Source of the DNA: Pelovirga terrestris
GTDB taxonomy: Bacteria > Desulfobacterota > Desulfuromonadia > Desulfuromonadales > Geopsychrobacteraceae
Length of the DNA: 64,000 nt
NCBI RefSeq assembly: GCF_014773365.1
Contig: NZ_JACWUN010000017.1
Coordinates: forward strand, 1 to 64,000
Reading direction: 5' to 3'
The translations under genes were made by a program, and so were the position numbers. Shown here one piece after another: positions 127-63,045 of this stretch; position 1 is the stretch's first letter, and each line of letters begins with the position of its first letter. The notes below the pieces were generated by a model, which saw nothing but the letters and a program-made list of their open reading frames with translations, had not been told where the DNA came from and ran no database searches.

Positions 127-330
127 GCTTTCTTTTGCCTCGCTCACGACACGGTGAACGTCAGGCAAGCATCATCTCCCTTCCGGGTGGAATTGGTCAC
201 AGCGACAGGTGCCCATTTTCTTTTTCTCCAATATCTGTTCGAGAACGCGAGAGACTCCCTCGTTTTCGCGGACATCTTTCTTGATGTCGTCATCGGTGTA
301 GTTATAGCAGTAACAAATCTTCTTGGTCAT
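118..330 (-). CDS. CopZ/BFD-like [2Fe-2S] selenoprotein with in-frame UGA (Sec53)
   Basis: A 70-residue protein if the UGA at 172-174 is read as selenocysteine. It starts at ATG 330, ten bases after the hsdR remnant stop, with a GAGG ribosome site. The N-terminal part has C6-x-C8 and C42-x-C44, then a GRUC motif (U53-C54) followed by 16 more sensible residues and TAG. The pattern CxC ... C ... GR(C/U)C matches the [2Fe-2S]-binding N-terminal domain of CopZ from Archaeoglobus and BFD-like domains, where the Sec position is Cys (family memory). A SECIS-like hairpin lies just after the UGA. The last two codons and the stop fall inside the intron, so the insertion may have replaced the natural C-terminus. 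The likely role is iron-sulfur or copper handling in the cytoplasm; this is not proven. Confidence 0.82.
135..168 (-). promoter_or_regulatory. SECIS-like hairpin after UGA 172-174
   Basis: On the minus strand the RNA pairs UUGCCU (168-163) with AGGCAA (140-135), CG with CG, and UUCAC (158-154) with GUGAG (147-143). There is a two-base bulge, and the apical loop is CGUGUC. The loop begins 18 bases after the UGA and has G as its second base. Both agree with the bacterial SECIS pattern (loop about 16-37 bases after UGA, G in the first two loop positions). It lies wholly outside the intron. Confidence 0.75.
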
Positions 331-340
331 ATGCGGTACC

Positions 341-964
341 TCACGCCACTGCCTGCTGATACAGATACTGCTGGAAATCGACAAAAATGCGGCTGATCTC
401 TTGCGGCATTCCCAGATCAGCGACGGCATCGGGGATGGAATTGTGATATTTGAGCTTGAGCAGGGGGGAGAGTTTTTCCAGGGCCAGTTCATCGACCCCG
501 ACCTTGACGTATTGCGCCAGGACAAAATCCAGGAAGCTGCGGTCCTTGCCGTCGGTCAGCTTGACCCTGGCTTTTGTCTTCTTCTTGCAGATACAGGGAG
601 TCCCACCGCACTGGTTGCAGGGTTTCTTTTCCCTGATGCAGACACAGGGGTCCTTCTGGTCGATCATCCCCATAAAGAGCTTGACCCGATGCTGCTCGCG
701 CTCCTTGATTTCGATAGTCCAGTTGAAGTCGGTTTCCTCGTAGCGGCATCCGGCTTCGATCTCTCCTTTGACCACCGCCAGCTTGGTGTTACGGTATTCC
801 AGCACATAGTCTGCCGTCAGCGCCTTGCCGCGTCTGCCGCTACCTTCGATACGTCCTAAGGTGATGGGATGTTCTGGACGCATCCGGCTCCCAGCCACTA
901 CGCCCCAACCAGCGGCTTTCAAGGCCGGATCAATATGCTCAAGTCGGGTTGCGGCTTCGTTCAT
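341..964 (-). pseudogene. hsdR remnant, internally deleted type I restriction subunit
   Basis: A 207-residue open frame in which the first ~70 residues resemble the N-terminus of a type I restriction R subunit (nuclease part, TADYVLEYRNTKLAVVK). The middle keeps only a Cys-rich stretch (CVC..CNQCGGTPC). The last ~60 residues match the HsdR C-terminus (LDFVLAQYVKVGVDEL, LLKLKYHNSI, DAVADLG). The family is usually about 800-1100 residues. The whole helicase section, including Walker A and DEAH, is missing, so it cannot act as a restriction translocase. It overlaps the AlbA_2 remnant by four bases and is followed ten bases later by the selenoprotein gene. Confidence 0.85.
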
Positions 965-1490
965 TCGATAACCTCCCAGTGACCGCCTTTGTCCGGACCG
1001 ATGCGACGGATATATCCGTTATTCTGAAGGTTTCGAAGGTTTCTTTCGATTGAGCGGCCAGACACGCCAATGTTATTTGACAATTCAGCAATTGTAATTT
1101 CGGGATTCTGGCGCATCTTGATAAGTATTTTCTCCGACGTTTTCTCCGACGTTTTCTCCGACGTTTTCTCCGACGTTTTCTCCGACGTTTTCTCCGACGT
1201 TTCGTCGTCAGTTTGCTTGGTAACTTGCCCCGTCGTATCCGCAACACTTATTACACGGACTCCCGCAGAATTTTCCGGCAATTGCTCTATGCTGGGTGTC
1301 GGCAGAATAAAGCGAAAGATATCATTTTCCACCAGTTCGGGATTCTCGCCGCCGTAATCCCGGCAGTAACGGAACAGCTTGCGCACTCCTGAGCCAAGCT
1401 CATCAGCCCGACCGATTTCCTTGAAAAAGCGGGCAATAATCGGATTTTTGGGAAAGGGTGAAAAACAGGCCGGGTCGATCAGTCCTGTTC
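961..1490 (-). pseudogene. C-terminal remnant of an AlbA_2/Schlafen-like putative DNA-binding protein
   Basis: The open frame without a start runs from about 1490 down to 961. It reads FSPFPKNPIIARFF, ADELGSGVRKLFRYCRDYGG, then a low-complexity SEKT repeat, then a winged-helix end (NNIGVSGRSIERNLRNLQ ... GGHWEVIE). This is the usual C-terminal half of AlbA_2-domain proteins found beside type I R-M genes. The N-terminal AlbA_2 and ATPase-like parts are absent. Around 1490 the frame is joined directly to an hsdM fragment, which marks a deletion junction. An ATG at 1386 gives a 141-residue frame, but nothing indicates it is expressed. Confidence 0.8.
1129..1200. repeat. Six tandem copies of a 12-bp repeat
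   Basis: The unit TTTCTCCGACGT is repeated six times without change. On the minus strand it encodes SEKT repeats in the linker of the AlbA_2-like remnant. A 12-bp unit keeps the frame when copies are gained or lost. Such SEKT linkers are usual in this protein family. Confidence 0.95.
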
Positions 1491-2098
1491 ATGATGGCGA
1501 TGACATAGGCGAGGGATTTCTTCTCTTTGCCGAAGAAGGTCTGCTCCTGTAGAATCTTGACATCAGCGGTGGTCAGTTGCGGTTTCTGCTTGAGGTATTC
1601 GAAGGCTTCGCACAAAAAGCCCGCCGACCCGCAAGCACCGTCATAGATCCGTTCACCAATACGCGGTTGCACCACCTTGATGATGGCGCGGATCAGGGGA
1701 CGGGGGGTGTAGTATTCGCCGCCGTTGCGTCCGGCGTTGCCCATGTTCCTGATCTTGGCTTCGTACAGGTGCGACAGCTCATGTTTCTCAGCCTGAGAGC
1801 CGAAGCGCAGTTGGTCGATGTGGTCGATGATCTCACGCAGGTTGTAGCCGCTTTGAATCTTGTTTTTGATCTCGCCGAAAATGTCACCGATCTTGTATTC
1901 GATGGTGTTGGCACCGGTGGCCTGGTCACGCTCCAGGGCATCAAGATACTTCAGAAAGAGTATCCAGGAACTCTGCTCGGTATAATCCAACTCACTGGTA
2001 CAACCGGCATCCTTCCACAGGACATCGCCAATATTTTTAAAGGTCTGCTCGAACAAAGGTAGGGGCCCCCGGGGATGGAATAATTCAATAGATGCCAT
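1403..2098 (-). pseudogene. hsdM remnant, N-terminal part of a type I methyltransferase
   Basis: From about 2050 the frame matches the HsdM N-terminus (FEQTFKNIGDVLWKDAGC, LDYTEQSSWILFLKYLD), then jumps over roughly 60 residues to TGANTIEYKIGDIFGEIK. It continues through NGGEYYTPRPLIRAII and the SAM-binding motif YDGACGSAGFLCEA, up to YVIAIMN at about 1490. After that the reading is foreign because the AlbA_2 remnant begins. The catalytic NPPF motif and the C-terminal half are lost. The normal ATG before FEQ is missing; the nearest upstream Met codon in frame is at 2098. This HsdM belongs to a different subgroup from the intact hsdM at 26078-28210. Confidence 0.85.
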
Positions 2099-2237
2099 GG
2101 TTGAATCGCTGAGCATCAGCAGAGTGGCAAGGTTAGCACTTTTTGTTGCCGGCAAAAAGGCAAAAGGGCAGGTGGCTGGGGTTGCGTGGGTGGGAACCTA
2201 AAAGGATGTTCATCCGGTCGGAGTGGCCGCATGAACC

Positions 2238-2819
2238 CTATTTTGTTCGCCAACTACCATCGGCCAGTTCGATAAACCATCCGCTTTGTGCGTTATCGCG
2301 CCAGGATGCTGCAAAAATATCCTGCACCTCGCCGACCCGGTCGGGGAATCCGTTAGCGCGGGCAATCTCTGCGTAGAGACGCTGTCGATCAGCATTCTCT
2401 TCGCTCACCAGGCGATTAACCTCACCCCTGGTTCGCAGGTCCAGCCCCTCCGTTGTCCGCACCTTGAGCAGGGCATCTACGCCGATGCCGATATGTCCCG
2501 AATCAAGATAGGGGAAGAGGCGTTCAGAGCGCTGTTTTATGGTGTCCTTCACCGCACGGATTTCAGGGGTGGTCACGTTGATGTCCTGGGCCGCATAAGC
2601 TGTGGTGGGTCCGCTCAGCCAGTGCAGCAGGCTGCCACGGTTACCTGCAGGCGGCTGGGTTGCCGGATCTTGTGGAAGGTTGCGTTCACCCCAGACCTCT
2701 TCGACAATTTTATCTGCGGCACCGCGCAGTTCCTCTGCCGGGAAGTAGATGTTAATAGTGACACAGGCGGCAATCACCAGAAGTGGTAGGCCAAGCAACG
2801 AACGAATCAGCTTTTTCAT
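2238..2819 (-). CDS. DUF1318 (YdbL-family) lipoprotein
   Basis: A 193-residue exported protein. The N-terminus is a lipoprotein signal: basic MKKLIRS, a hydrophobic core and a lipobox-like LLVIAAC with Cys19. The following VTINIYFPAEELRGAADKIVEEVW is the hallmark of DUF1318/YdbL proteins in this bacterial group. The C-terminal half (VKDTIKQRSERL, GIGVDALL, RLVSEENADRQRLYAEIARANG) matches the YdbL core. A GGGAG ribosome site precedes ATG 2819. It lies 68 bases downstream of the YdbH-like gene on the same strand, as in the enteric ydbH-ynbE-ydbL cluster, which is linked to transport of lipids to the outer membrane. No ynbE-sized gene is seen between them. Confidence 0.85.
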   Translation of the reverse strand: MKKLIRSLLGLPLLVIAACVTINIYFPAEELRGAADKIVEEVWGERNLPQDPATQPPAGNRGSLLHWLSGPTTAYAAQDINVTTPEIRAVKDTIKQRSERLFPYLDSGHIGIGVDALLKVRTTEGLDLRTRGEVNRLVSEENADRQRLYAEIARANGFPDRVGEVQDIFAASWRDNAQSGWFIELADGSWRTK

Positions 2820-2887
2820 GTCTTCTCTCCCGGCTGGTTAACGAACAGACCATCATTATATCACGACAGGATGGGTGTGGCAGTAAA

Positions 2888-5800
2888 TCAGCGCGTTGTT
2901 GTCCGATCAATACGCTCCAGACGGCGCAACATTTCACGAAACGACACCCCCGTTCCCGGTGCCAGAATATCGATGCGCGGCGGTAATAGTCCACCATCAA
3001 CCAGGTGCAGGTCCGAATCGGCGCGGGCGGTTCCCTTGAGCACAAAAACATCGTTGCGCAGGACACAGCGCAGACCAATGTTGCGATAGCGATAAAAATC
3101 GATAAAACGATACACCCCGCGCGAGAGGGCGGCCGAAAGCCCTCCCTGGCTGATAACCGTCAGATTGTTGAGCGCCTTGACGCTGATATTGCGCTGCCCC
3201 TGATCGCGGGTGGTGAATTCAGCGACGAAAGCCGAAGGTATCTTGCCGAACAAACGCAGATCGTGAATGTAGCCATCCATAATGCCGTTGATCTCACCGA
3301 AGGCAAAGGTCCTGGTCAATTGTTCCAGATCAATCCCGTGAAAGTCGATATCACCTTCAATGCTACGATAGGAGGAAAAAATATCGCGTGCCCTTAAATT
3401 GCGGATCTGGATCGTGCCGGCAAAGACATCGATGCGCGCTTCTCCTTCTGATTGCAGCATGCCGCCAACATATTCAAATTCGCCAAGATCAGCGGTTAGG
3501 CTTCCCCGCAGGAGCGTCAGTTCCAGCTCCTGGGTGAGTTCCTGAAGATCGATATGGTTGATACGGGTGCGACCACTGACAGAGAGATCGCTGGAATCAT
3601 GACCAATACTCAAGTTTTCAATCAGGATGTTCCCGCCGGCCAGATTGAGTTTCCAGGGGTCGATAAAGGTCAGGCGGTTGGTCATTGCGGTGAGGGTGAG
3701 ATCATTTGCTGCGCTGCTAACCGGCCCGGCTTGAAGTTGCGAGAAGGTCACAAATCCATTGCGCGCAACGCCTGAAGTCTTACCACCGGAAGAAAAGACA
3801 AAAGGGATCTCTCCGGCCAGATCGAGCATGCTGATATTTGCAGCGCGGTATTTCAACCCGAGGGTGTCAGGATGAAGGGCGCCGCTAACGTTCCACCCGT
3901 CCGGCCTCCAAACTCCGGTGCTGTCGGCTGCCAGAGTACCGTTTAGCTCAAGTTGTTCCAACCCCGGGAACAGGGTTGCCAGCAACGGTCGCAGCTGCAG
4001 GTTAAATCCCGTTTCAAGGTGCGGAAGCAACAGCTCGCCACCAAATTCCAGTGTGTCGGAATGTCGCTTTAGCTGCCCTTTGAACTGACCAATAGCGGGT
4101 ATGAAAAGGCTGATGTCATTGACTTGCAGGGATGCCAGGGTGGCATCCCAGGCAGCTTGCAGGTCAAAATCGATGGGCAGTTGTGACAGGTCGCCGTAAA
4201 AAGAATGAATCAGCGCTTCCTGCATCTGCGCAGAACCCTGGAGCCTGGCATGCGACTGTTGTTGCGCTTCATCCCATGCCACTGTGCCGGCCAGGTTAAG
4301 GGAACCCCCGGCCAGCGCGCTCATATCATCGGCGGAGAGATATTCAAGGTTCTCGATCGTTAGTGCTGCAATGTTCATTTGCAACGACGGTGCGTGCCAG
4401 CGCGCCGCACCCTGCAGGGTCGCAACGGGAATCGACAGGCCATGACCAGTTATTGTGGTTTGTATGTTCAAATCCGCCACCGCGAGTTGCTCCTGCTGCC
4501 AGTGAAAGCTGCTGCTGATGTGGCTTGTCGCGACGTCAAAACCGGCAGCATGAAGACCTTCAGCGATCAAGTTGAAATGTCCCTGGACCGCGTCCGCGGT
4601 AGGATTCAGCTGGATCTGTCCGGCGAGCCACCCTTTTTTCTCGACCAGGTGTGGCCAGCGGGAAGGGCTAAGGATTTGCGCCAAAGAACCTACCGGGGTT
4701 CGGTGCAGCTGTGCAACCAGTTGCCCGGAATTGCCCTCGACCGTTAGTAGGGGTGCTCCCCTCAGATCGAGTTTGAGGTTACCGGACAGGGCATCAATAG
4801 CGCCCTGCACCTGGAAGTTGCCACGGAAGGGCGATCGATCCGCAGCCCCAACACCGGCGGATGGCTGCGGCCAAAGGCTATGAAAATCGCCGCTCAGCTC
4901 TAGAACCTGGTTCAGCCAGCTGGTCCGTGCTGTCCATTCAAGGCCACCGCTGACGGGCAGGGCTTGGTCTTGGCCTACGACCTTTGGTATCCGCGCCAGA
5001 TCGCGGAAAGTTCCTTGTCCTGTGGCAACCACATGCCCATCCGTTCCCTGCACAGCAAAAGATACGGGGGAGCCTTCTGCCAGTTGCGCTTCGCCGACGG
5101 CCTGCCACTGGTGCCGATCTCCGGCACCACTCAGGCGCAGATTGTTTGCCTGAAAACGCACGTCACCTTTTGTCAGTTGCAGCGCTGCCGCGGCAAGTTG
5201 GCCTTGCACTTGCCCTCCACGTATTTCTACCCCCAGGCGCAGGTTCTGTACGGAAAAATCGACGTCAGGCGCAAGTAGCTGTTGCATCCCTGCGAGCGCC
5301 AACCAGGGGTCCAGTTGTGCCCGGTCAACGTGAGCCAGCACCAGTTCTCCCCCGGCGGCCAGCCCTTCGACGGCAGGGCGCAGGGTTAAGGGCGTTGTGA
5401 GCAGTGAGTGGCCATCGATGTTCACTTCATTCAGTTGCACTTGCAGTTGCGGATCGGTCTCCCATTGCCATTGCCCGGAAGTAGAGAGCTTAAGTGGCGT
5501 CTCCCCTTGCACCGTAACCGCCAGACGAAAACTTCGCGATGGTGCATGATGCAGATCGAATTCAATGGCGCGCACTGCAACCACCTGATCCGTTAACACA
5601 AGATCAAAGCGACCACCGGTAACTGTCAACAGGTCGATGCTGATCGGAGGTTTGCGCAATCTGAAGGGGGTGGAGTTGTTATTGTCAGGTAAAAAGGTCG
5701 GGTTAAAATAGACTTCCGGTTGTTCCACCCGCAGGGAATCGAGTCGCCCACGCCATAAGTTTCCGAGGTTGAAATCCAGGATCAGAGCGGGCACTGTCAC

Positions 5801-9338: not shown

Positions 9339-10016
9339 ATGAATCTTTCAGTCAAGGATGCGGCCAAACTGCTTGCGGTTGCAGAAAAAACTATTTATCG
9401 CTGGATTAAACAGGACATTGTTCCTGCCTATAAAATAAACGAAAATTATCGTTTTAATCGCGCCGAGCTGCTGGAATGGGCGACCTCGCGCCGGATGGGG
9501 GTGTCGGTGGAGGCTTTTAACGAACCGGAAACCGTTGCTCAACCCTTGCCTGCGTTGAGCGAAGCGTTGGAGAGCGGCGGGATTTTTTATCGAGTTGGTG
9601 GTGACACCAGAAAAAAGGTGTTGCTGGATGTTGTTAATCATTTACGTCTGCCCGATGAGGTTGACCGCGACTATCTCTTCAGGGTGTTGCTGGCACGAGA
9701 AAAAATAGCCAGTACCGCCGTCGGCAATGGTATTGCTTTTCCGCACCCGCGCAACCCGGTTCTGCTTCATGTCACCAGGCCGACCGTTACCCTTTGCTTT
9801 CTCGACAATCCGGTTGATTTTCACGCTCTTGACGGTCTGCCGGTAAGGATTCTCTTTACCTTGATCACACCAACCTTGCGTTCTCATCTGCATCTGCTGT
9901 CAAATCTGGCGTTTGTCTTGAAAAACAAGAATTTCGAGCAGGTCATTCAGAATCAGGGCAGCCGGGAAGAAATTGTCGCGGCACTCCGGCTGGCCGAACA
10001 GAAGCTGGTGCTCTGA
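9339..10016 (+). CDS. HTH-PTS EIIA-like (PtsN-type) regulator of the Ehr operon
   Basis: A 225-residue two-domain protein. Residues 1-50 are an excisionase/MerR-like helix-turn-helix (VKDAAKLLAVAEKTIYRWIK). Residues about 70-220 are a PTS EIIA domain of the nitrogen type, with the phospho-histidine motif GIAFPHPRNP. GGAGGAG precedes ATG 9339; a GTG at 9336 overlaps that site and is less likely. The stop overlaps the ATG of the next gene by one base, so it is the first gene of the operon. It probably senses phosphotransfer state and controls the complex behind it. DNA binding and phosphorylation are inferred from the domains. Confidence 0.85.
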   Translation: MNLSVKDAAKLLAVAEKTIYRWIKQDIVPAYKINENYRFNRAELLEWATSRRMGVSVEAFNEPETVAQPLPALSEALESGGIFYRVGGDTRKKVLLDVVNHLRLPDEVDRDYLFRVLLAREKIASTAVGNGIAFPHPRNPVLLHVTRPTVTLCFLDNPVDFHALDGLPVRILFTLITPTLRSHLHLLSNLAFVLKNKNFEQVIQNQGSREEIVAALRLAEQKLVL

Positions 10017-12007
10017 TGGCCGAATTATGGCTGCTATCCTTGCTGCTGCCGGTATTCGGTGCCCTCCTGGTTCTGCCTTTGTGTCGTTACGCAACCTTGA
10101 GCGCCGGGATTGCTGCTGTGACGACCGTGCTGGCGGCGATTCCCGGTGTGTACGTCGCCATGTCCCTGCTGAACGGTCAACCGCCCATTTCCATTGCTTA
10201 TGCCTGGTCATTGCCCGGTGGTGCTTTGCAGATTGACGTTGACGCAGTGAGCGCATTTTTTCTGTTGCCGGTGTTTATTCTGTCCCCGTTGTGTGCCATT
10301 TACGGTGGTGCCTATCTGCACCAGGTTAAGGGAAAGTTGCTGGGAGTTCATTGGGCTTTTTTTCTGCTGCTGGTTGCGTCGATGGTTCTGGTCTTAAGCG
10401 CAGGTCAGGTCTTTCTGTTTTTGGTGGCCTGGGAATTGATGTCATTGACGTCGTTCTTTCTGGTGGCCTTTGATCACCAGAATAAAGAAGTGAAGCAGGC
10501 TGCCTGGGTCTATCTGGTGGCCAGTCACCTCGGGGTCACCTTGTTGCTCGGGTTCTTTCTCTATAGCAGTCAATGGAGTGGCAGTCTGTTCTTCTCTGAC
10601 TTTGAGGCGCTAAGGGCAATCCCCCAGCACCAGGCGACAGGGCTGTTTCTGCTGGCGGTGGCGGGTTTTGGCATCAAGGCCGGGTTGTTCCCTTTTCACG
10701 TCTGGTTGCCGGAAGCTCACCCGGCGGCTCCCAGCCACGTGTCGGCGCTGATGTCGGCGGTCATGGTTAACCTGGGAATCTACGGGATCCTGCGGACTGT
10801 TACCTGGTTGCCGCAAGCCCCCGCCTGGTGGGGGCTGTTGCTGGCCGGATTCGGCATTGCAGGGGCGCTGTACGGCATTGCCCTGGCCGCCGTTCAGCAG
10901 GATATCAAGCGCTGTCTGGCCTATTCCACGGTGGAAAATGTCGGGATCATTTTTGTCGGTCTCGGTGTGGGAATCTATGCCGTCGCCGCAGGTTTTTCCG
11001 CCGTCGCCCTGCTCGCTTTTGCCGGAGCGCTATTACATCTGTGGAACCATTCGTTGTTTAAGGGGATGCTGTTTCTCGGCGCCGGGAACCTGGTACACGC
11101 AACCGCTACGCGCAACATGAATCAGTTAGGTGGCTTAATGAAGCGCCTGCCTGCCACCTCGATGCTGCTGATCGGCGGCAGTGTCGCGATTACCGCGTTG
11201 CCACCGTTCAACGGTTTTATTAGTGAGTGGCTGATCTACCTGGGCTTACTCCACGGTGGACTGGAGATGCCACGGGCCATGGGGCTGCCGCTGTTGCTCC
11301 TGGTGAGTCTGCTGGCGCTGGTTGGTGCAATGGCCATCCTGGTGTTTGTCCGGTTGGTGGGAATTTCTGTATTGGGCAATCCGCGTTCGGCAGCGGCAGC
11401 TAGTGCCCATGAAGGGAGCATCTTGCTGCTGGCACCTCCCGCTATTTTGTTGGCTGGTTGTGTGCTGATCGGACTCAATCCGTTGCCGGTGCTGGATCTG
11501 CTCAGGGCTCCTGTGGTGTTGTTGATCAAAACGGAGTTGCTGCCGATGCTGACGCTGACCGCATTTACCGGGCTGGGTCGGGGGGTCTGGTTGCTGTTGG
11601 CGTTGATTGCCGGCATGGCCTTGTTGTTTTTTGTGCAACGTCACCGCCATCCTGCTGTCGTCGCAGCAACCTGGGGCTGTGGCTTTGCCCTGCCGAATAA
11701 TCGCATGTCCTACAATGCCACGGCTTTTAGCGAGCTTGCTCACAATCATTTGCTGCCGCGTACCCTGCGCCCGGAAGTTGTAACCGCGCCGGTAACCACA
11801 TTTTTTCCTCAGGCAGTACAGCTGTCGCAACAGTCATCCGATCCGGTTCTGAATCGTCTGCTGCAACTGTTTTTCACCAGGATAGCAAATCTGTGTCAAC
11901 GGTTGCGCTGGTTTCAGCAGGGGCGTTTGCCGATTTATCTGCTCTATATTTTTCTGACCTGTATTGGCCTGATGGTCTGGTCGCTTCGGGTTTTTGGGGG
12001 AGGTTGA
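10016..12007 (+). CDS. Ehr complex antiporter-like membrane subunit 1 (HyfB/NuoL type)
   Basis: A 663-residue, highly hydrophobic protein of the Mrp-antiporter/NuoL-HyfB family (HyfB about 670 residues). It keeps the channel residues: the Glu in FLVAWELMSLTSFFLVAFD and the Lys in GFGIKAGLFPFHVWLPEAHP, followed by APSHVSALMSAVMVNLGIYG. It should be one proton or sodium pumping module of a membrane-bound oxidoreductase. It begins on the last base of the regulator stop and is followed two bases later by a second, similar subunit. Both share a conserved internal end (HPAVVAATWGCGFALPNNRM here), so they probably arose by duplication. Confidence 0.9.
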   Translation: MAELWLLSLLLPVFGALLVLPLCRYATLSAGIAAVTTVLAAIPGVYVAMSLLNGQPPISIAYAWSLPGGALQIDVDAVSAFFLLPVFILSPLCAIYGGAYLHQVKGKLLGVHWAFFLLLVASMVLVLSAGQVFLFLVAWELMSLTSFFLVAFDHQNKEVKQAAWVYLVASHLGVTLLLGFFLYSSQWSGSLFFSDFEALRAIPQHQATGLFLLAVAGFGIKAGLFPFHVWLPEAHPAAPSHVSALMSAVMVNLGIYGILRTVTWLPQAPAWWGLLLAGFGIAGALYGIALAAVQQDIKRCLAYSTVENVGIIFVGLGVGIYAVAAGFSAVALLAFAGALLHLWNHSLFKGMLFLGAGNLVHATATRNMNQLGGLMKRLPATSMLLIGGSVAITALPPFNGFISEWLIYLGLLHGGLEMPRAMGLPLLLLVSLLALVGAMAILVFVRLVGISVLGNPRSAAAASAHEGSILLLAPPAILLAGCVLIGLNPLPVLDLLRAPVVLLIKTELLPMLTLTAFTGLGRGVWLLLALIAGMALLFFVQRHRHPAVVAATWGCGFALPNNRMSYNATAFSELAHNHLLPRTLRPEVVTAPVTTFFPQAVQLSQQSSDPVLNRLLQLFFTRIANLCQRLRWFQQGRLPIYLLYIFLTCIGLMVWSLRVFGGG

Positions 12008-12008
12008 G

Positions 12009-13979
12009 ATGCCCTGGTTGCTGACGGCAGTGGCTCTAGCCGGACTGTCCGGCGTTCCCGGGCTGTTTATGAATCGCTATGGCAGTGGCGGTGAGCGGAT
12101 CGCTTGTGCTTTGATCGTTGCTGCCGCACTCTGCGGCCTCGGCGCCGTCGTCCAGGTTTTTTATGATGGTGATCCGTTGCTGCTGGCTTGGTCGTGGAAC
12201 ATTCCCGGCGCAGCTTTTATTGTGCGTCTGGACGCTCTGGCAGCATTTTTCCTGATGCCTCTGTGCCTGGTCGCGGCAGCGGGGGCCATTTACGGACTGA
12301 TGTATATGGCCCAATCCCACCACCCTGAAAACGGCAGACAGTTCCGCTTATTTTATGGCCTGGTAGTGGCAGCAGTGATGCTGGTGGTCTGTGCCGGCAA
12401 CAGCTTGTTATTTCTTTTTGCCTGGGAGTTGATGGCGGTTTCCGGATTTTTTCTGATCACTGCGGACGATCAATTGGAAGAGGCCCGCAAGGCGGGTTTT
12501 GTTTATCTGGCGGCCTCCCACACCGGCGTTTTGGCCCTGCTCGCCATGTTCGTGTTGCTGGAACAGGGCAGCGGATCTTTTACTTTCCCAGCCGCTGGCC
12601 TGTTGGTTGCTCAAGGCGGGTCGGCGGCGGCGATATTTCTGTTGGGCCTGTTCGGTTTCGGGCTGAAGGCCGGTTTGATCCCGCTGCATATCTGGCTGCC
12701 TGCCGCCCACGCTGCCGCGCCGAGTCACGCGTCGGCCCTGCTGTCCGGTGTGATGATCAAGACCGGTATTTACGGACTGATGCGTCTGACCTCCTTTTTC
12801 AGTGAGATTCCCTTCTGGTGGGGAGGCTCCTTGCTGGCGCTGGGGGCCCTGTCGGCGGTGTTCGGGGTGGTTCTGGCCCTGGCACAACATGATATCAAAC
12901 GCTTGCTGGCTTACCACAGTGTTGAAAATATCGGCATCATCGCGCTAGGTCTCGGCATGGCCCTGGTTGGCCGCAGTCTGGCAGAGCCCCTGCTGGTGAT
13001 GCTTGGTTTGGGGGGTGCCTTGTTACACGTCGTCAATCACGGGTTGTTTAAATCATTACTGTTTTTAAGTGTCGGCTCCGTGGTTCAGGCAACAGGGACG
13101 CGTGATCTCAGCCAATATGGCGGTTTATCAAAGCATCAACCGCTGACGGCTTTGTTGTTTCTGGGCGGCGCGGTAGCGATCAGCGGATTGCCACCTTTTA
13201 ATGGATTTATCAGCGAGTGGTTGATTTACACGGGTGTTTTTTCCAGCGCCGGGAAAGATGTTGGCGGTGGCATAGCCATTCTGCTGATTGCCCCGGTGCT
13301 GGCGCTGACCGGGGCCCTGGCCCTGGCCTGCTTCGTCAAGGTTTTCGGCATGACCTTTCTGGGCCATCCCCGCAGTGACGCTGTCGTGCAGGCCAAGGAG
13401 GCACCGGCATTGATGCTGGCGCCGATGATGGTGCTGTTGGGCTTTTGTGCCTGGATCGGGTTGCTGCCGCAGACGCTGGGCCCGTTGTTGCTCAACGCTG
13501 TGGGCAGCTGGAACAGCGCAGCCCTGGAAATGCCGACAGCCTTGCCGCTGCAGTCATTGACCAATATCAGTGTTTTTGCCTGGGTGCTATTGCTGACCTG
13601 TGGTGTGTCGATCTGGTGGTTACAGCGCCGCCGGCACCATGTGGTGCGCAGCCTGGGGACTTGGGGCTGTGGTTATCAGCTACCAAATCAACGCATGCAA
13701 TACAGTGCCGGCTCCTTTGCCGACACAATAGTCGCACTGTTCCACTTCGGACTCTGGACCCGGCGCCATGGCGGGCAGGCCCGCGGACTGTTTCCCGTCG
13801 GCGAGCATTTGACTTGCCACACGCCGGATATCGTTCTGGATCGGGCGATAATACCGGCAAGTAGCGGTATCAGCTGGTTGTTTGTGCGGTTGCGATCATG
13901 GGTGCAGAACGGACTTTTGGCATTTTATCTGCTCTATATTGCCCTGACGCTGATATTTTTTCTGTTGTGGTTTATGTGA
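12009..13979 (+). CDS. Ehr complex antiporter-like membrane subunit 2 (HyfB/NuoL type)
   Basis: A 656-residue paralogue of the preceding subunit, with the same landmarks: LFAWELMAVSGFFLITADD with the channel Glu, GFGLKAGLIPLHIWLPAAH with the Lys, APSHASALLSGVMIKTGIYG, and the late SLGTWGCGYQLPNQRMQY block. ATG 12009 is chosen because GGGGGAGG stands five bases upstream; the frame continues upstream to 11994 without a better start. Two large NuoL-like subunits in a row, plus a third smaller one downstream, give the complex three predicted pumping channels. It lies in the inner membrane. Confidence 0.9.
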   Translation: MPWLLTAVALAGLSGVPGLFMNRYGSGGERIACALIVAAALCGLGAVVQVFYDGDPLLLAWSWNIPGAAFIVRLDALAAFFLMPLCLVAAAGAIYGLMYMAQSHHPENGRQFRLFYGLVVAAVMLVVCAGNSLLFLFAWELMAVSGFFLITADDQLEEARKAGFVYLAASHTGVLALLAMFVLLEQGSGSFTFPAAGLLVAQGGSAAAIFLLGLFGFGLKAGLIPLHIWLPAAHAAAPSHASALLSGVMIKTGIYGLMRLTSFFSEIPFWWGGSLLALGALSAVFGVVLALAQHDIKRLLAYHSVENIGIIALGLGMALVGRSLAEPLLVMLGLGGALLHVVNHGLFKSLLFLSVGSVVQATGTRDLSQYGGLSKHQPLTALLFLGGAVAISGLPPFNGFISEWLIYTGVFSSAGKDVGGGIAILLIAPVLALTGALALACFVKVFGMTFLGHPRSDAVVQAKEAPALMLAPMMVLLGFCAWIGLLPQTLGPLLLNAVGSWNSAALEMPTALPLQSLTNISVFAWVLLLTCGVSIWWLQRRRHHVVRSLGTWGCGYQLPNQRMQYSAGSFADTIVALFHFGLWTRRHGGQARGLFPVGEHLTCHTPDIVLDRAIIPASSGISWLFVRLRSWVQNGLLAFYLLYIALTLIFFLLWFM

Positions 13980-55878: not shown

Positions 55879-57663
55879 ATGAATATTCTCTCTCTTAATC
55901 AGGTCAGTCTGGCGTTCGGTGGCCCTAAGCTGCTTGATGCTGTCAACTTGCAGATCGAAGCCGGTGATCGTATCTGTCTGCTCGGACGTAACGGTGCCGG
56001 CAAATCATCACTGATGCGCCTGCTCAACGGTGACATTTCGCTTGACGCTGGTGAAATCCAGCGCCGCCAGGGAGTGCACACTGCTTACGTGCCGCAGGAC
56101 TTCCCTGCCCATTGGCCGGGGACGGTGCGTGACTATCTGCAGCAAAGTGGCCAGGCCCACGGGCTCGATGACCTCACCCTGCAGGTGCGGATCGACCAGC
56201 TCGCCGGGCGGTTGGAACTGCTGCTGGATGAGCCACCGACCGATCTTTCCGGTGGTCAGCAGCGCCGCACCCTGCTGGCGGCGGCATTGATTCTTGAACC
56301 TGATCTGATTTTGCTCGATGAACCGACCAATCATCTGGATATCGAAGCGATCATCAAGCTCGAGGAACTGCTGTTAAGATTGGGCAAGACCCTGGTGTTC
56401 GTCAGTCACGATCGCGCTTTTGCGCGCCGTCTGGCGACGCGGATCGTTGAGCTCGATCGCGGCCACTTGCATGATTATCGCTGTGATTACGGCACCTTTT
56501 TGGAGCGTCGACAGGATGTTCTGCATGCCGAAGAAAAAGCCTGGGAGCGTTTTGATCAAAAGTTGGCCGAAGAGGAGGTATGGATCCGCAAAGGGATCAA
56601 GGCCCGCCGTACCCGTAACATGGGGCGGGTGCGCGATCTGCTGAAACTACGCGAAGAACGACGCCAGCGTCGTGATCGCATCGGCAAGGTGCGCCTGAAT
56701 ATCGATGAGGCACAGCGCAGCGGGCGCATGGTGGTTGAGACCGCAGGATTATCTTTTGCCTATCCTGACAACCCGCCGCTGATTGACAACCTCGATTTGC
56801 GGATCATGCGCGGTGATCGTATCGGCCTGCTCGGTCCCAATGGTTGTGGCAAGACCACCCTGCTCAAGCTGCTGACCGGTGAGTTGCAGCCGACTGCCGG
56901 CACCCTGCGCCTGGGAACCAATCTGGAAATCGCCTATTTTGATCAATTGCGTGAGCAGCTTGATGGTGATCGCAGCGTCAAGCAGAACCTTGCTGACGAT
57001 CATGATCAGGTCATCATCAATGGCCAGCCCCGTCATATCTATGGTTACCTGCAGGATTTTCTCTTCACCCCGGAACGGGCGCGAACGCCGGTTCGGGTCC
57101 TGTCCGGTGGGGAAAAAAATCGTCTGTTGCTGGCCAAACTCTTTACCCGCCCGGCGAATCTGCTCATTCTTGATGAGCCGACCAATGATCTTGACATGGA
57201 AACCCTGGAACTATTGGAGGAATTGCTCCTTGATTACCAGGGCACCGTGTTGCTGGTCAGTCACGACCGCAGCTTTATCAATAATCTGGTGACCAGTTCC
57301 CTGGTGTTTACCGGTAACGGCAGGGTGGAAGAGGTTATCGGTGGCTATGACGATTGGCTTGCGCAGAAGCCGGCGCCACGGGCTGACACCGAACCAAAAC
57401 CAAAAACACCAGTACCCGCGCGTAAAGAGCGGCCGCGCAAACTGACCTTTAAGGAAAAAAGGGAGCTGGCAGAATTGCCCTTGACCATTGAGACCCTCGA
57501 AGCCGAGCAGGCCGAGTTGCACGCCACGATGGCTGATCCGGGCCTTTACCAGCAGGGCAACAGCGAAAAAATCACTGCAGCGCAACATCGACTGGAAACA
57601 GTGGAAAAGGAGTTGGAGGCAACCTACGGACGCTGGCAGGAACTGGAGCAGATTCCGGAGTAA
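55879..57663 (+). CDS. uup: ABC-F ATPase, Uup type
   Basis: A 594-residue protein with two ATP-binding cassettes: Walker A LLGRNGAGKSS and LLGPNGCGKTT, signatures LSGGQQRRTLL and LSGGEKNRLLL, each followed by LLDEPTNHLD / LILDEPTNDLD. Between them lies the ABC-F linker. The C-terminal ~90 residues form the Uup-type coiled coil (LTFKEKRELAELPLTIETLE). Uup binds DNA or ribosomes and affects transposon excision and translation. ATG 55879 is used; the frame upstream to 55855 has no better signal. Confidence 0.93.
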   Translation: MNILSLNQVSLAFGGPKLLDAVNLQIEAGDRICLLGRNGAGKSSLMRLLNGDISLDAGEIQRRQGVHTAYVPQDFPAHWPGTVRDYLQQSGQAHGLDDLTLQVRIDQLAGRLELLLDEPPTDLSGGQQRRTLLAAALILEPDLILLDEPTNHLDIEAIIKLEELLLRLGKTLVFVSHDRAFARRLATRIVELDRGHLHDYRCDYGTFLERRQDVLHAEEKAWERFDQKLAEEEVWIRKGIKARRTRNMGRVRDLLKLREERRQRRDRIGKVRLNIDEAQRSGRMVVETAGLSFAYPDNPPLIDNLDLRIMRGDRIGLLGPNGCGKTTLLKLLTGELQPTAGTLRLGTNLEIAYFDQLREQLDGDRSVKQNLADDHDQVIINGQPRHIYGYLQDFLFTPERARTPVRVLSGGEKNRLLLAKLFTRPANLLILDEPTNDLDMETLELLEELLLDYQGTVLLVSHDRSFINNLVTSSLVFTGNGRVEEVIGGYDDWLAQKPAPRADTEPKPKTPVPARKERPRKLTFKEKRELAELPLTIETLEAEQAELHATMADPGLYQQGNSEKITAAQHRLETVEKELEATYGRWQELEQIPE

Positions 57664-57714
57664 CCCTTTAACGCAGACGGACAGTGGTTTTGCGCTAATT
57701 GGGACAGGCTCTAA

Positions 57715-58650
57715 CTATTCTTCCTGGGGATATCCTGATAGCACAGCCAGCTGGTCGGGTGTGAGTAGGCCTTTATAGGTTCTCCCACCAATGATCCAGG
57801 TGGGATAGGCTTGAATATTGTTGATTCTGCATTCTGCTGCCGGCGGTGATCTACGGCCACCTGGCGTGCATTCGACGTATGGGAGCAGTTTTGCGGACGA
57901 CTCGAACAGAAACTTCTGTTCCTTGCATGCCGGTCACCAGAAAGTACCATAAAAAATGGCATCCCCTTGAGCAAGATGAGTGGCCAATCCTTTCAGGTAG
58001 GGATCCTCGGGCCCGGCAGCAGGATGAAATACTCCACTATAGTGCAGATGCATCCCCCCGATAATGATCAGTGCCACAATCGCTGTTTGAACGGACCAGG
58101 ACTTAAACTTGAAATTCTTCATCCTCTCGGGCCGCTGAGTCATGATGACTCCGAAAGTGGCCACCATTATTGCCAGAGAAACAAGGCAGTAGGGGCACAG
58201 GGCATTGATGACAAAATGCGATACCAACGTGAGATAGATACTGTAGCCCACCCCTATTAATGCAACGATCCAGGCTGACTTCCAGTGCTGCTCAGGATTG
58301 CGAATCTTAAAACCAATAAAGGTGAGAGCAGCATAAGTCATGAATCCCCAGAATGCCGTTGGCATGCCGAGGAAGGTTCCCCACCGACTTTGCTGAACGA
58401 TGTCGCATGCACTCCCTTCAGCGCAGTGCAGGGGAGTATTGCCAAACCATACGGTCAGGGTCAGATACAGGGTCAGGGCCATCCCGATTCCGGCAAGCAC
58501 AGTTACGGGCCAGTTGGGATGCTTCCTTTGTTTTAACCCTGGTGGTTGTTTCTTTTTCCCCTGTTTCACGGGCCTTTCCGGGGATGCTGTTTCTTGTGGC
58601 AAGGGCGCCTTTTCGGTCGAGGTCTTCTTCCTATTTTTTATTTTACTCAA
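57715..58650 (-). CDS. VKOR-thioredoxin fusion selenoprotein with UPAC active site
   Basis: A 311-residue protein if UGA 57934-57936 is read as selenocysteine. Residues 1-45 are cytoplasmic and basic. The VKOR domain (about 50-190, four to five helices) keeps the loop cysteines (LHCAEGSACDI) and the CPYC centre (ALCPYCLVSLA). The thioredoxin-like domain begins near 220. Its active site reads FYGTFW-U239-PAC where homologues have FWCPHC, and it continues in frame with LPYVECTPGG, AAECRINNIQAYPTWIIGG and LSGYPQE to TAG. Without readthrough the protein would lose this whole domain. It is the last gene of the thiol-redox operon and should oxidise or shuffle periplasmic disulfides. Confidence 0.9.
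57904..57921 (-). promoter_or_regulatory. SECIS-like hairpin after UGA 57934-57936
   Basis: On the minus strand GAACAGA (57921-57915) pairs perfectly with TCTGTTC (57910-57904) around an AGTT loop (57914-57911). The loop begins 19 bases after the UGA and its second base is G. Both agree with the bacterial SECIS pattern. The hairpin lies in coding sequence, as bacterial SECIS elements do. Confidence 0.8.
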
Positions 58651-58713
58651 TGGTTTAATCCTCCAGACGATGATTCACTCAACCAATCCCCTCTTTTAAG
58701 ATGTTTGTCGTTT

Positions 58714-59370
58714 TTATTCTTTCGGATATTGGGCGATCAATTCCGACTGAATCAGTTCGGAGAGTTGGCGGTAGCCAAAAACTTGCAACGGCTTGCCGTT
58801 GACAAAGTAGCCGGGCGTTTTTTGTACATCAAGGGCTCTCACGTCGGCCATATCCTGGGCAATGATTTTGGCAATAGCGGGGTCATGCATATCTTTTTTG
58901 ATTTGCTCGATATCAACTCCCGCCCTGGGGAGGATCTCCCATAATCTTTCTGGCTGGTAATTGTGGTGGTTAGCCCAGATATTCTGGGTCGCAAACATCA
59001 GATTCAAGGTTTCCCAGTACTTCCCTTGCATTGCTGCTGCTTCAAGAATTTTGACGAAATCGTCAGCACCATCATGGAACGGGGCGTAACGAAGCACCAA
59101 TTTTATTTTACCGGGATTGGCATCCATGATTTGTTTGATAAAGGGAGCAAACGCAGCGCAGGTTTCGCAGGCCGGGTCCATAAACTCAACCAGGTAAACT
59201 TTCGCGTCATCACTGCCAAATGTTCGCGAATGATCTCTGATAAAAAGCTCAGCGTTTTCTGCCGCCAAAAAACCATACTTTTGTGCTTGTTGCTCTTGAT
59301 AATAATTATTACCAACCACAAAAGCCAAGACCAACACCAGACAGGTTATTCCAACGAGAGCGTATTTCAT
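58714..59370 (-). CDS. DsbA-like periplasmic disulfide oxidoreductase
   Basis: A 218-residue thioredoxin-fold protein. The N-terminus is a signal peptide or anchor (MKYALVGITCLVLVLAFVVG). The active site is C-E-T-C in EFMDPACETCAAFAPF, and the cis-Pro loop is KTPGYFVNG. It should introduce disulfides into exported proteins and be re-oxidised by a DsbB- or VKOR-type partner, both of which are encoded next to it. It overlaps the DsbB gene by four bases. Confidence 0.9.
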   Translation of the reverse strand: MKYALVGITCLVLVLAFVVGNNYYQEQQAQKYGFLAAENAELFIRDHSRTFGSDDAKVYLVEFMDPACETCAAFAPFIKQIMDANPGKIKLVLRYAPFHDGADDFVKILEAAAMQGKYWETLNLMFATQNIWANHHNYQPERLWEILPRAGVDIEQIKKDMHDPAIAKIIAQDMADVRALDVQKTPGYFVNGKPLQVFGYRQLSELIQSELIAQYPKE

Positions 59371-59807
59371 TTTGAGGTTCTCCTCTTCAGGATGATTAAC
59401 AGAAAGACAAGGGTTGAAAATGCGAAAAATGACAACATGGGGATGGATATAAAACCGAACAGTTCAAAATATTGTTCCGTGCAGGAAACACCCTGTGAAC
59501 AGGGTTGAATGTTTTCCGGAATAATTCCGGCGTAGAGCAACGTATGGTAAAGAGCCGTCAACCCACCGGCGATAGTCAGTGGCAGGGAATATTTGATGAC
59601 GCTTTTATCAAACGTCGGGAACAGGCCCGCAGCGAAAATAACGATTAACGGAAACAGGAAAATCCGCTGATACCAGCAGAGGACACATGGCTGATATTCT
59701 AAAACGGAACTGAAAAAGATGCTGATTGTTGCCGAGACGCTGACCAGGAGCCAGCATAAGAACAGCAACGTCCAATTTGTATTCGTTTCTTTGTCAGATT
59801 GCGCCAT
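59367..59807 (-). CDS. DsbB/BdbC-like disulfide bond formation protein
   Basis: A 146-residue four-helix membrane protein with the two cysteine pairs of the family: PCVLCWYQRIFLFP (CxxC) and QPCSQGVSC. It passes electrons from the DsbA partner to quinone. The start is taken at ATG 59807 (MAQSDKE), which gives the usual BdbC size and has GGAG upstream; the frame is open to 59873. Confidence 0.9.
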   Translation of the reverse strand: MAQSDKETNTNWTLLFLCWLLVSVSATISIFFSSVLEYQPCVLCWYQRIFLFPLIVIFAAGLFPTFDKSVIKYSLPLTIAGGLTALYHTLLYAGIIPENIQPCSQGVSCTEQYFELFGFISIPMLSFFAFSTLVFLLIILKRRTSK

Positions 59808-59876
59808 AAACAATTGCTCCACAAAATGATGAAAAATAAGGTCGACAGTGCCGTGCTTGTGACGGTGGACCACCCT

Positions 59877-60626
59877 TTAGCCTAGTACCGGAACCCATCG
59901 GTAAAAAAACATGGTGATCGGTAACAGCAGATTGAACATTAGCATGATACCAACGGCAATGAGCATCACACCGGTACCGATTTCAATTTTGCGCATATGG
60001 TATCGAAGCCTTCTGGCCGTGCTCAGGAATCGATGAAACAGCAGTCCCGAGAGCAGAAAAGGAAGCCCCAGACCTAGGGAATAGAACGTCAATAACATGG
60101 TCCCCTCAGCAACGTGCCCTGATGTTGCCGCGACCATCAAGATTGAGGCCAAAATGGGTCCAATGCAGGGTGTCCAGCCAGCGGCGAAGGCGACTCCAAC
60201 AACCAACGTGCCAAAATAGCCGGCAGGTTTTTTGGTCAGTTGAATTCTTTTATATTTCAACAGGGCGTGGAAGGAAAATAATCCGGTCATGTGGACGCCA
60301 AACAGCAGGATCAGCAAACCGCCGATCTTGGCGACCCAGTTCATCCCCTCGCGCAATAATGCCTGGATTTGACCGGAGGCGATGCCGGCAATTGCGCCAA
60401 GCAGGATAAAAACAAGGGAAAATCCGAGGATAAAACAAAGAATATGGAGGATAACCGTCAGGCGAACTTTGACATCAGGATGCTCTTCATCAAGTTGTTC
60501 AAAGGATAGACCAGTTATGTAGGTCAGATACGAAGGGATCAGCGGTAGAACGCAAGGAGAAACAAAGGACAAAACCCCAGCGGCAAACGCTATCCAATAA
60601 GTGATATCGGCAGCTTCTTGTAACAA
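59877..60626 (-). CDS. ccdA: Cytochrome c biogenesis / thiol transfer protein CcdA
   Basis: A 249-residue membrane protein with six helices and the two conserved redox cysteines in FVSPCVLPLIPSYLTYITG and AAGWTPCIGPILASIL. CcdA carries reducing equivalents from cytoplasmic thioredoxin to periplasmic thioredoxin-like proteins such as ResA/TlpA. It follows the ResA-like gene by four bases, so both likely work together. Confidence 0.94.
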   Translation of the reverse strand: MLQEAADITYWIAFAAGVLSFVSPCVLPLIPSYLTYITGLSFEQLDEEHPDVKVRLTVILHILCFILGFSLVFILLGAIAGIASGQIQALLREGMNWVAKIGGLLILLFGVHMTGLFSFHALLKYKRIQLTKKPAGYFGTLVVGVAFAAGWTPCIGPILASILMVAATSGHVAEGTMLLTFYSLGLGLPFLLSGLLFHRFLSTARRLRYHMRKIEIGTGVMLIAVGIMLMFNLLLPITMFFYRWVPVLG

Positions 60627-60630
60627 TTGA

Positions 60631-61140
60631 TTATCCTCTGGTCAAATGTCTGAAATATTCAACCGTTTTTTGACTGGACCAATCGAGTGGGCCAATAATC
60701 TTCTGGTCGACAATGCCGTTTTTATTGATGATGAAAGATTCGGGTAATTTATAGACACCATATTGTTGTTTGACGGTCCCCTGGTCGTCGTAGAGCACAG
60801 TGATATCGAGCGGATTTCTCTTGAGAAAGTCAGGAACAATCGAAGGGCCGTTCTCTTCTGTGTTGATGGCCAGCATGACAAAATCCTCTTCCGCCATCAT
60901 CTTATTGAGCCGCTCCATCGAGGGCTTTTCCTGTTTACAGGATGGACACCAGGTTGCCCAGAAATTCACCATAACAACCTTGCCCCGCAACTCAGACAGC
61001 GTGACGGTATTTCCTTTGGTATCCAAAAGCTGAAAATCAGGTGCAATATCTCCAACAACCACGGGTGTTGGGAGGTTGAAATAGATGTAGACACCGAAGC
61101 CCAATACCACGATGAGAACTACCAACACCAAATAACGCAT
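60631..61140 (-). CDS. ResA/TlpA-like membrane-anchored thioredoxin
   Basis: A 169-residue protein with an N-terminal anchor (LVLVVLIVVLGFGVYIYF) and a thioredoxin-like AhpC/TSA-Redoxin domain: DFQLLDTKGNTVTLSELRGK, active site NFWATWCPSCKQEKPSM, and cis-Pro LPESFIINKNG. It reduces apocytochrome c or other periplasmic thiols using electrons from CcdA. It is the first gene of the minus-strand operon ResA-CcdA-DsbB-DsbA-VKOR. Confidence 0.93.
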   Translation of the reverse strand: MRYLVLVVLIVVLGFGVYIYFNLPTPVVVGDIAPDFQLLDTKGNTVTLSELRGKVVMVNFWATWCPSCKQEKPSMERLNKMMAEEDFVMLAINTEENGPSIVPDFLKRNPLDITVLYDDQGTVKQQYGVYKLPESFIINKNGIVDQKIIGPLDWSSQKTVEYFRHLTRG

Positions 61141-61366: not shown

Positions 61367-61822
61367 TTAACGCAGAAGAACAACTGTACGTAGCACTTGT
61401 AACGTTTGATGTTCGGGTAAGTGACCAGGGGGGGTGCGTCTTGCTAAGTGTGTTCCCCCTAAGTTCAACCCAGGAGCGTGGGAGAGATACGTCGTGTCAA
61501 GGGACGCTGCTGAATTTTTGATGAGCAGGGTGGACAGTTTTGAGGTAGGAAGAGCTGAAGTAAATACCAGGGAATCAAGGCAATCGTCACCAAGTGAAAA
61601 GGATAAATTCGCTGACTGCGGAATTTTTGAACCCTGTTGAGGCAGTTCGGAATCCGCAGAACAATTGACCAAACATTTGCCGATGGGATTTACTTTCAGA
61701 TGGGAGGAATCTTCATCCGTATGACACCAGAAGGCAGCATTGGCAGTACCGAAGCTGAGGAACAGATAGATCAGCACCATCCATTGCAGGATCCATTTTT
61801 TCTGTAGAGCGCTCGTCAGCAT
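61367..61822 (-). CDS. Uncharacterised exported Cys-containing protein
   Basis: A 151-residue protein with a signal peptide (about residues 1-29, WMVLIYLFLSFGTANAAF). The mature part begins FWCHTDEDSSHLKVNPIGKCLVNC and has cysteines at the front and one further on (GDDCLDSLVF). The rest is low in known motifs and ends in a basic, Pro/His-rich tail. ATG 61822 is chosen for the signal peptide and an AGG upstream; the frame runs open to 61969. It precedes the thiol-redox operon by 226 bases on the same strand. It may be a metal- or thiol-related periplasmic protein; function is unknown. Confidence 0.6.
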   Translation of the reverse strand: MLTSALQKKWILQWMVLIYLFLSFGTANAAFWCHTDEDSSHLKVNPIGKCLVNCSADSELPQQGSKIPQSANLSFSLGDDCLDSLVFTSALPTSKLSTLLIKNSAASLDTTYLSHAPGLNLGGTHLARRTPPGHLPEHQTLQVLRTVVLLR

Positions 61823-62006
61823 GACTATTACCTGAAAAGAAGAAAATTCCAAAGAAGCGACAGAAGACTTATATCCGTCATTAGAGATAAACACGATGGG
61901 GAAACTCCCTTTTCTTCTCTGCGTGTTTGCACACCTTGCTTGCGACATGAATCTCATGCCACTACCCAATACCGGTGGCTTGAAATGACAAAATCAGAAA
62001 AAAGAG

Positions 62007-62493: not shown

Positions 62494-63045
62494 TTATTTC
62501 TGCCAGGCGAATTTCCTGAAAGCCTCGTCGCTCGGGGTGCCGGCAAGGTGATTGACGTAGTTGCTCATCACCTTTTGCGACAGGCCAAGGATAATTTCTA
62601 GTAACTGACGCTGGCCGTAACCGGCGGCGTAGAATTTCTCAACCTCCGCTTCGCTCAGCTCACCGCGTTTGCGCACCAGCGCCAGGGTCGTTTCCTGTAG
62701 CACCTGAAGCTTCTCGGTCGGCAGCGGCTGCTGGTTGCGCAGCGCCTCGGTCAGCGCCGGGTCGACCTTCATCATGTGGGCGATGGCGGTGTGGGCCGGG
62801 ACGCAATAGGTGCAATTGTGTTCGACGTTGATGCTCTGCCAGACCACGGTCTTTTCTTCGTCATTGAACGAGGAATCGAGGAACAGCTGGTGCAGCTTCT
62901 GGTAGCCTTCGAGGAGACCGGGAGCCTCGGCCATCACGCCAAAGAGGTTGGGAATCATGCCGTTCTGTTTCTTGTAGTTGGCGAGACGTTGGCTGCTCGC
63001 TTCCGGCGCGCTATCGATGTCGTGAATGTTGAATTTGTTTTTCAT
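62494..63045 (-). CDS. Carboxymuconolactone decarboxylase / AhpD-like protein
   Basis: A 183-residue protein of the CMD/alkylhydroperoxidase D-like superfamily. The redox motif is H-x-C-x-x-C-x-x-x-H in VEHNCTYCVPAHTAIAHMM, with KTVVWQSINVEHNC before it and the family end LGLSQKVMSNYVNHLAGTP. Such proteins act as small thiol peroxidases or dehydrogenase-like enzymes against organic peroxides or quinones. It is transcribed away from a TetR gene, and two palindromes lie in the shared promoter region, so it is very likely repressed by that TetR. Confidence 0.9.
   Translation of the reverse strand: MKNKFNIHDIDSAPEASSQRLANYKKQNGMIPNLFGVMAEAPGLLEGYQKLHQLFLDSSFNDEEKTVVWQSINVEHNCTYCVPAHTAIAHMMKVDPALTEALRNQQPLPTEKLQVLQETTLALVRKRGELSEAEVEKFYAAGYGQRQLLEIILGLSQKVMSNYVNHLAGTPSDEAFRKFAWQK

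Follow-up and report, generated by a model that had tools for sequence, protein, structure and literature searches.

The locus described here raises the question of how an in-frame TGA is read when it occupies the position of the first active-site cysteine of a thioredoxin-like domain: as selenocysteine, as a stop, or as an error of the sequence. The window is the whole stretch of 64,000 nucleotides analysed from Pelovirga terrestris (contig NZ_JACWUN010000017.1, positions 1 to 64,000). An earlier note, made from the letters alone, had read a minus-strand gene in it as a VKOR–thioredoxin (Trx) fusion with selenocysteine (Sec) in a UPAC active site. The features of this gene are as follows.

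57715..58650, minus strand: predicted Sec-VKOR-Trx gene, TTG start at 58650, 311 codons, TAG stop at 57715-57717 (translation with TGA read as U)
58147..58512, minus strand: VKOR domain, residues 47-168 (PF07884, E 1.8e-24 in the own genome, 5.5e-24 with the protein)
57718..58002, minus strand: thioredoxin-like domain, approximately residues 217-311, with the UPAC active site, Cys261/Cys274 and YPTW; matched by 3kp8
57934..57936, minus strand: in-frame TGA, residue 239, aligned with Cys209 of Synechococcus VKOR; TGA in 7/7 complete genes of the type
57904..57921, minus strand: putative SECIS stem-loop, GAACAGA / AGTT / TCTGTTC, 12 nt past the TGA, apical loop 19 nt past it

The reading frame at 57718-58650 is interrupted solely by the TGA at codon 239. 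Its translation gives 311 residues followed by TAG, with a single UGA at the first active-site position (GTFW-U-PAC). A further 72 residues follow, among them YPTW and, near the end, LSGY, just as the note had described. GGAGGA precedes the TTG at 58650, and the start context printed for four relatives has GGAGGA or AGAGGA ahead of TTG or GTG. The claimed fusion was confirmed on both sides: PF07884 scored 85.3 bits against a curated cut-off of 27.5, and 3kp8, the Trx-like domain of Synechococcus VKOR, matched the C-terminal domain with 99.5 bits by sequence. Since Pfam returned no family at E <= 1 for the 72-residue tail when it was scanned by itself, the Trx-like domain was identified through 3kp8. 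NCBIfam contained no Sec-VKOR model, and two weak VKOR models stayed below cut-off.

The Synechococcus VKOR provided the sole solved relatives by sequence and the first by fold. Entry 4nv2 matched residues 42-311 (E 2.1e-43), with codon 239 on chain residue 209 and Cys242 on 212. The AlphaFold2 model, built from 27 sequences (mean pLDDT 82.2, pTM 0.68; first 34 residues mostly below 50), has five helices (47-69, 98-115, 119-147, 153-171 and 182-204) ahead of a thioredoxin-like fold. The top five Foldseek hits were all chains from four entries for Synechococcus VKOR (query-length TM 0.54-0.58); the rmsd of 5.9-6.6 indicates that the domains are differently placed, and the modelled Trx-like domain itself superposed on 3kp8 with TM 0.95 (target length), rmsd 0.9 and 50% identity. 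Together, the model and 3kp8 place a C-terminal Trx-like domain after the fifth helix, as in a Synechococcus-type VKOR-Trx fusion. The Trx active site lacks a two-cysteine CXXC, its first position being the TGA, and the protein is therefore filed as a Sec variant and not as an ordinary member.

The VKOR part has a loop pair, Cys76/Cys82, and a CPYC pair, Cys152/Cys155. All four cysteines are invariant in 27 aligned sequences, as are positions 239 and 242 (Sec entered as Cys), Cys261, Cys274 and YPTW. The N-terminal tail (residues 1-46) contains 14 Lys/Arg and 3 Asp/Glu, and the loop 172-181 contains 4 Lys/Arg and 1 Asp/Glu. Under the positive-inside rule, these basic segments would fit a cytoplasmic N-terminus and a periplasmic Trx domain.

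The same TGA was found in relatives. An order-level search matched the protein in 8 of 136 genomes, six of which, including the own genome, have a full-length or nearly full-length gene with exactly one stop, a TGA. A seventh complete TGA gene, L032, came from public contigs. All seven (own, G088, G065, G083, G075, G018 and L032) carry TGA at the active-site codon, and the six others are 62-82% identical to the window gene. Of the remaining matches, G011 was dropped, as its match comprised 63 N-terminal residues only, and G087 was left out of the complete genes because of many stops in the aligned frame; its damaged copy has both the TGA and the hairpin. The type is uncommon: a profile search of the class matched 7 of 277 genomes at E <= 1e-15, from two families of the window's order. 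One of these is G087, whose operon is riddled with indels: relative to L032, 68 gap openings fall within 3 kb (contig L043, approximately 9400-12500), and frames of 411-833 codons are open on the same stretch. Either decay or a locally poor assembly would account for these indels.

Two objections that the note itself had raised were thereby settled. Other stop codons at this place in sister genes were not encountered, the codon being TGA in 7/7 complete genes and in the damaged G087 copy. A sequencing or assembly error that turned TGC or TGT into TGA has a probability that is practically nil; G087 does exemplify bad or decayed stretches, but the same TGA stands in the window gene and in six further complete genes, each from a different assembly, which refutes such an error.

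L032 (JAGYNC010000275.1) is filed as a Victivallaceae MAG. All of its 3042 bases align, at 94%, with the G087 operon, and G087 is a member of the window's own genus; L032 is therefore probably a misbinned contig rather than a case of inter-phylum transfer. Its MAG, of unstated completeness, gave no tRNA-Sec over cut-off; this supports misbinning weakly, as the L033 record missed too (46.6 against 47), though G630, with the same stretch, has selA. With L032 set aside, the Sec-VKOR was seen in one bacterial order alone, within the genomes searched and a public-contig scan that reaches close relatives only. Viral contigs held no relative of the gene, and 18 plasmid records matched, every one below 60% identity, from genera that we take to be cyanobacteria.

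More distant homologues have cysteine in place of the UGA. Apart from the window's own genome and another of the genus, a phylum-wide draw of 395 genomes gave G332 alone, without a stop; in the class of G332, 28 of 148 genomes matched. The codon was read where the locus was fetched, and the other 8 of the 28 had no stop reported inside the match. The alignment with cysteine homologues that the note had proposed bore out its reading: the active-site codon is TGC in 13, TGT in 7 and TGA in none of 20 distinct Cys-type genes (L033, which came from public contigs, L037 and L050-L067, mostly from two families in a different class of the phylum). L049 was dropped, its printed stretch being identical to L033, and the stops reported for L049 and L051 fall upstream of the ATG. 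In a tree of the 27 proteins, a branch with 100/100 support sets the seven Sec genes apart. The tree was midpoint-rooted, and the program warned of long branches meeting at the Sec branch; the direction, probably from Cys to Sec, is suggested by the wider family being Cys and not given by the tree. A different type of fusion was observed in a Phycisphaerae MAG (L034, JAFGJQ010000004.1), in which VKOR is followed in frame by a longer Trx domain that looks DsbA-like by eye and has C-x-x-C.

The genome encodes the machinery for which the note had asked. Each component exceeded its curated cut-off: selA (583.7 bits), selB (365.8), selD (353.5) and the tRNA-Sec, selC (69.7). In this assembly of 3.1 Mb and 47 contigs, selA, selB and selD are grouped on a single contig and the tRNA-Sec is on a different one; the anticodon of this tRNA, read by eye, is TCA. 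The selD gene is itself a Sec gene, with an in-frame TGA in SG-TGA-AAK. All 8 genomes matched in the order-level search have selA, and so do 24 of 27 Cys-type genomes (27 of the 28 taken in, G595 left out); the machinery thus does not predict the Sec form. On contig L043 of G087 (1-3011 and 9535-10455), selA and a SelB-type-GTPase-like frame stand approximately 6.6 kb from the Sec-VKOR gene.

After the TGA, the DNA continues with CCGGCATGCAAG and then GAACAGA-AGTT-TCTGTTC, and the perfect 7-bp hairpin with an AGTT loop, 12 nt past the UGA, is present as the note had claimed. Its MFE is -13.5 kcal/mol over 47 nt, with a fold z of -1.82 and 11 of 200 shuffles at least as stable. A passage of a recent catalogue of prokaryotic selenoprotein families describes the bSECIS as a loop of 3-9 nt with G in the first two positions, a stem of 4-16 bp, the loop 16-37 nt from the UGA and an MFE <= -7.5 (PMC13188914). 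The window hairpin lies within each of these ranges (AGUU, 7 bp, 19 nt, -13.5 kcal/mol), and when a perfect stem of 7 bp or longer was required, bSECIS-like geometry was found in 7/7 Sec genes and 0/20 Cys genes. No Rfam family matched the element: when 57400-59500 was scanned, the three matches all fell far short of their gathering scores, and none of them was a SECIS. Geometry and conservation were therefore used to assess the SECIS.

Taken by itself, the hairpin is weak evidence; the strong part is that it is conserved. With G-U pairs allowed, the same geometry passes at 314 of 3050 codon positions (approximately 10%) in 11 window genes and in 3779 of 20000 synonymous recodings of the stretch. 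The hairpin is more than chance, since the TGA and a 7-bp stem-loop recur in 7/7 complete genes. Seventeen of the 18 nucleotides are invariant in the seven genes, and the single change, A to G in L026, retains a G-U pair; so invariant a stem gives no covariation support. The window of codons +5 to +12, picked after the hairpin had been seen, ranks first of 260 eight-codon windows with 22 of 24 invariant nucleotides against a mean of 11.5. At degenerate columns with an invariant amino acid, identical codons occur in 6 of 8 cases in the stem-loop and 14 of 120 elsewhere (Fisher p 1.6e-4). Position +11 is Glu in 7/7 Sec genes and Gly in 20/20 Cys genes, as if the RNA may have pulled the protein.

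These data bear on a rival reading in which translation ends at the TGA, leaving a 238-residue five-helix VKOR without shuttle and, beyond it, a decaying remnant. TGA terminates 3 of 10 window genes examined, which is consistent with such a stop and indicates that the codon is not reassigned wholesale. The dN/dS after the TGA, however, is 0.075-0.309 (Nei-Gojobori, all 21 pairs of the seven Sec genes), which places these codons under purifying selection, as expected of translated sequence. In 7/7 complete genes the frame stays open for a further 71-75 codons and ends at nearly the same position, the cysteines and YPTW beyond the TGA are invariant across the 27 sequences, and the stem-loop codons are frozen. 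A real stop is thus very improbable, and on comparative grounds the decoding of the TGA as Sec is nearly certain.

The genes upstream on the same strand encode further thiol-disulfide proteins.

58714..59370, minus strand: DsbA-like thioredoxin-fold protein with CETC, the next gene upstream (PF13462, E 4.4e-20; PF01323, E 4.3e-10)
59367..59873, minus strand: DsbB-type disulfide oxidase (PF02600, E 4.8e-12; PRK03113, E 1.2e-27, below curated cut-off)
59877..60626, minus strand: CcdA / DsbD-type transmembrane protein (PF02683, E 9.6e-21)
60631..61140, minus strand: ResA/TlpA-type thioredoxin-like protein with WCPSC (PF00578, E 8.5e-29; ResA model, E 1.8e-35, below curated cut-off)

G088 and G075 share the window's gene order, ResA-CcdA-DsbB-DsbA-VKOR. 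In G083, DsbA adjoins the Sec-VKOR gene and the cluster is truncated where the contig stops; L032 retains DsbB-DsbA-VKOR, with a CcdA-like fragment only and no ResA match. None of the cluster neighbours occurs in the stretches examined of G065 (764 nt upstream) and G018. In most genomes seen, the Sec-VKOR gene thus belongs to a cluster of extracytoplasmic thiol-disulfide genes, next to a DsbA/DsbB pair. In the window, the DsbA-like/DsbB and CcdA/ResA pairs share the cluster at 58714-61140; with a DsbB-type gene present, two disulfide generators of different families are neighbours. Ahead of the cluster lies a 200-codon frame (61367-61969, minus strand) with no Pfam match at E <= 1 and with relatives at the same place in G088, G075, G087 and L032. 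Farther upstream, 62494-63045 (minus strand) encodes a peroxidase-related/AhpD-like protein with CTYC (TIGR01926, below cut-off), a family of which a Sec form is listed in the 2026 table (PMC13188914).

We propose, with a probability of roughly 0.87, that the gene encodes a Synechococcus-type VKOR-Trx selenoprotein, in which the UGA would be decoded as Sec at the outer nucleophile of the shuttle via the SECIS and SelB/tRNA-Sec, and which would take part in quinone-linked disulfide generation. In a passage on Synechococcus VKOR, electrons flow from substrate to Cys209-Cys212, Cys50-Cys56, Cys130-Cys133 and finally quinone, and the active-site CXXC with a loop cysteine pair is a feature of the VKOR family (PMC3800646). 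The matching residues in the window protein are Sec239-Cys242, Cys76-Cys82 and Cys152-Cys155. By analogy, the UPAC pair, oxidised as the selenenylsulfide Sec239-Cys242, would accept electrons from periplasmic thiols and pass them to the loop pair, Cys76/Cys82; from there they would move to the membrane pair, Cys152/Cys155, and on to quinone, so that disulfides would be made de novo. The enzyme would therefore most likely generate disulfides in the periplasm, linked to quinone, with a built-in shuttle that works through a selenenylsulfide. We infer the incorporation of selenium, the periplasmic side, the direction of the electrons and quinone as their acceptor, and the shuttle would presumably cycle through the selenenylsulfide. 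Sec chemistry suggests faster exchange and reversible oxidation. One may speculate that its benefit here is faster exchange, or else a resistance to overoxidation; the change in redox potential and rate of the shuttle domain that the note had claimed may follow from Sec.

Two other readings accept Sec and differ on what the protein does. A motif of this kind usually has a lower potential with Sec, and this expectation does not by itself favour an oxidase. The shuttle might therefore act chiefly as a periplasmic reductant or isomerase, with VKOR as its partner, alongside CcdA and ResA; these two lie in the cluster, where a DsbA/DsbB pair is already at hand. We consider this rather unlikely, because L032 keeps DsbB-DsbA-VKOR with only a CcdA-like fragment and no match to ResA, and because the cysteine set of the VKOR part is that of a disulfide generator, as a passage of PMC3800646 describes it.

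The other reading would make the UGA a selenium-dependent switch: the full Sec fusion when selenium is present and, when it is absent, a UGA-terminated five-helix VKOR that oxidises the adjacent DsbA-like protein. A degree of termination at the UGA is, however, normal in bacterial selenoproteins. The last membrane helix of the model (182-204) does end ahead of the TGA, but the 34 residues between them hold elements of the Trx fold, so that the truncated product would carry a partial domain. Likewise, a DsbA-like gene is directly upstream in G000, G088, G075, G083 and L032, but no DsbA match stands beside the gene in G018 or within the 764 nt upstream in G065. VKORs without Trx exist, according to a part of the VKOR phylogeny (PMC4555120). 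On balance, the switch is quite unlikely; were it real, selenium supply would reroute periplasmic disulfide formation, and among quinone-linked enzymes that make disulfides de novo this one would be the first with a known use of selenium. The disulfide generator with a Sec shuttle remains our preferred reading.

The author of the note knew of no described Sec-containing VKOR fusion, and our survey agrees with this. Table 1 of the 2026 catalogue, with 119 families or subfamilies and read whole, has no VKOR or PF07884 entry, and its main text contains neither "VKOR" nor "vitamin K" (PMC13188914). Both terms are also absent from the main texts of PMC5029168, PMC1794560, PMC8318568, PMC12013277, PMC9312934 and PMC2398784, and "seleno" is absent from the available part of the VKOR phylogeny (PMC4555120). 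Among the open-access matches listed, no title or abstract opening pointed to a Sec-VKOR; NCBI may hold machine-annotated examples. We conclude that this is a real selenoprotein form of a known enzyme family, apparently undescribed, and one that adds a family to a catalogue without it (PMC13188914). A gene caller that takes the TGA as a stop would give a truncated VKOR. VKOR enzymes, among them the one that warfarin targets in humans, are regarded as thiol relays, and a natural Sec variant would place selenium in the quinone-linked step of de novo disulfide formation. The Sec-VKOR thus offers a native protein for asking what Sec does in a disulfide relay with respect to rate, potential and protection from overoxidation.

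This study also relates the protein to known systems. The closest is the Synechococcus VKOR-thioredoxin fusion (PDB 3kp9, 4nv2, 4nv5 and 4nv6; 3kp8), which has the same domain order, loop cysteine pair and CXXC, the same position of the Trx motif, two further Trx-domain cysteines and YPTW. In contrast to it, the window protein has Sec as the outer residue of the shuttle in place of Cys209, a SECIS inside the coding sequence and a basic tail of approximately 45 residues, and its gene is clustered with those for DsbA-like, DsbB, CcdA and ResA proteins. The Cys-type VKOR-Trx homologues are 42-49% identical to the window protein with the redox positions aligned; they carry WCPHC or WCPAC where it has WUPAC, and the tested stem-loop geometry is absent from all 20. 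The known UxxC selenoproteins of the Trx fold (DsbA-like, DsbG-like, Trx and TlpA-like; PMC13188914 Table 1) share Sec as the first residue of the motif. The TsoB rhodanese/DsbD fusion-like selenoprotein (NF045694) is, by its name, also a selenoprotein with a membrane disulfide-relay domain; it is DsbD-like and not VKOR, and the Sec-VKOR protein does not match NF045694 at E <= 0.001.
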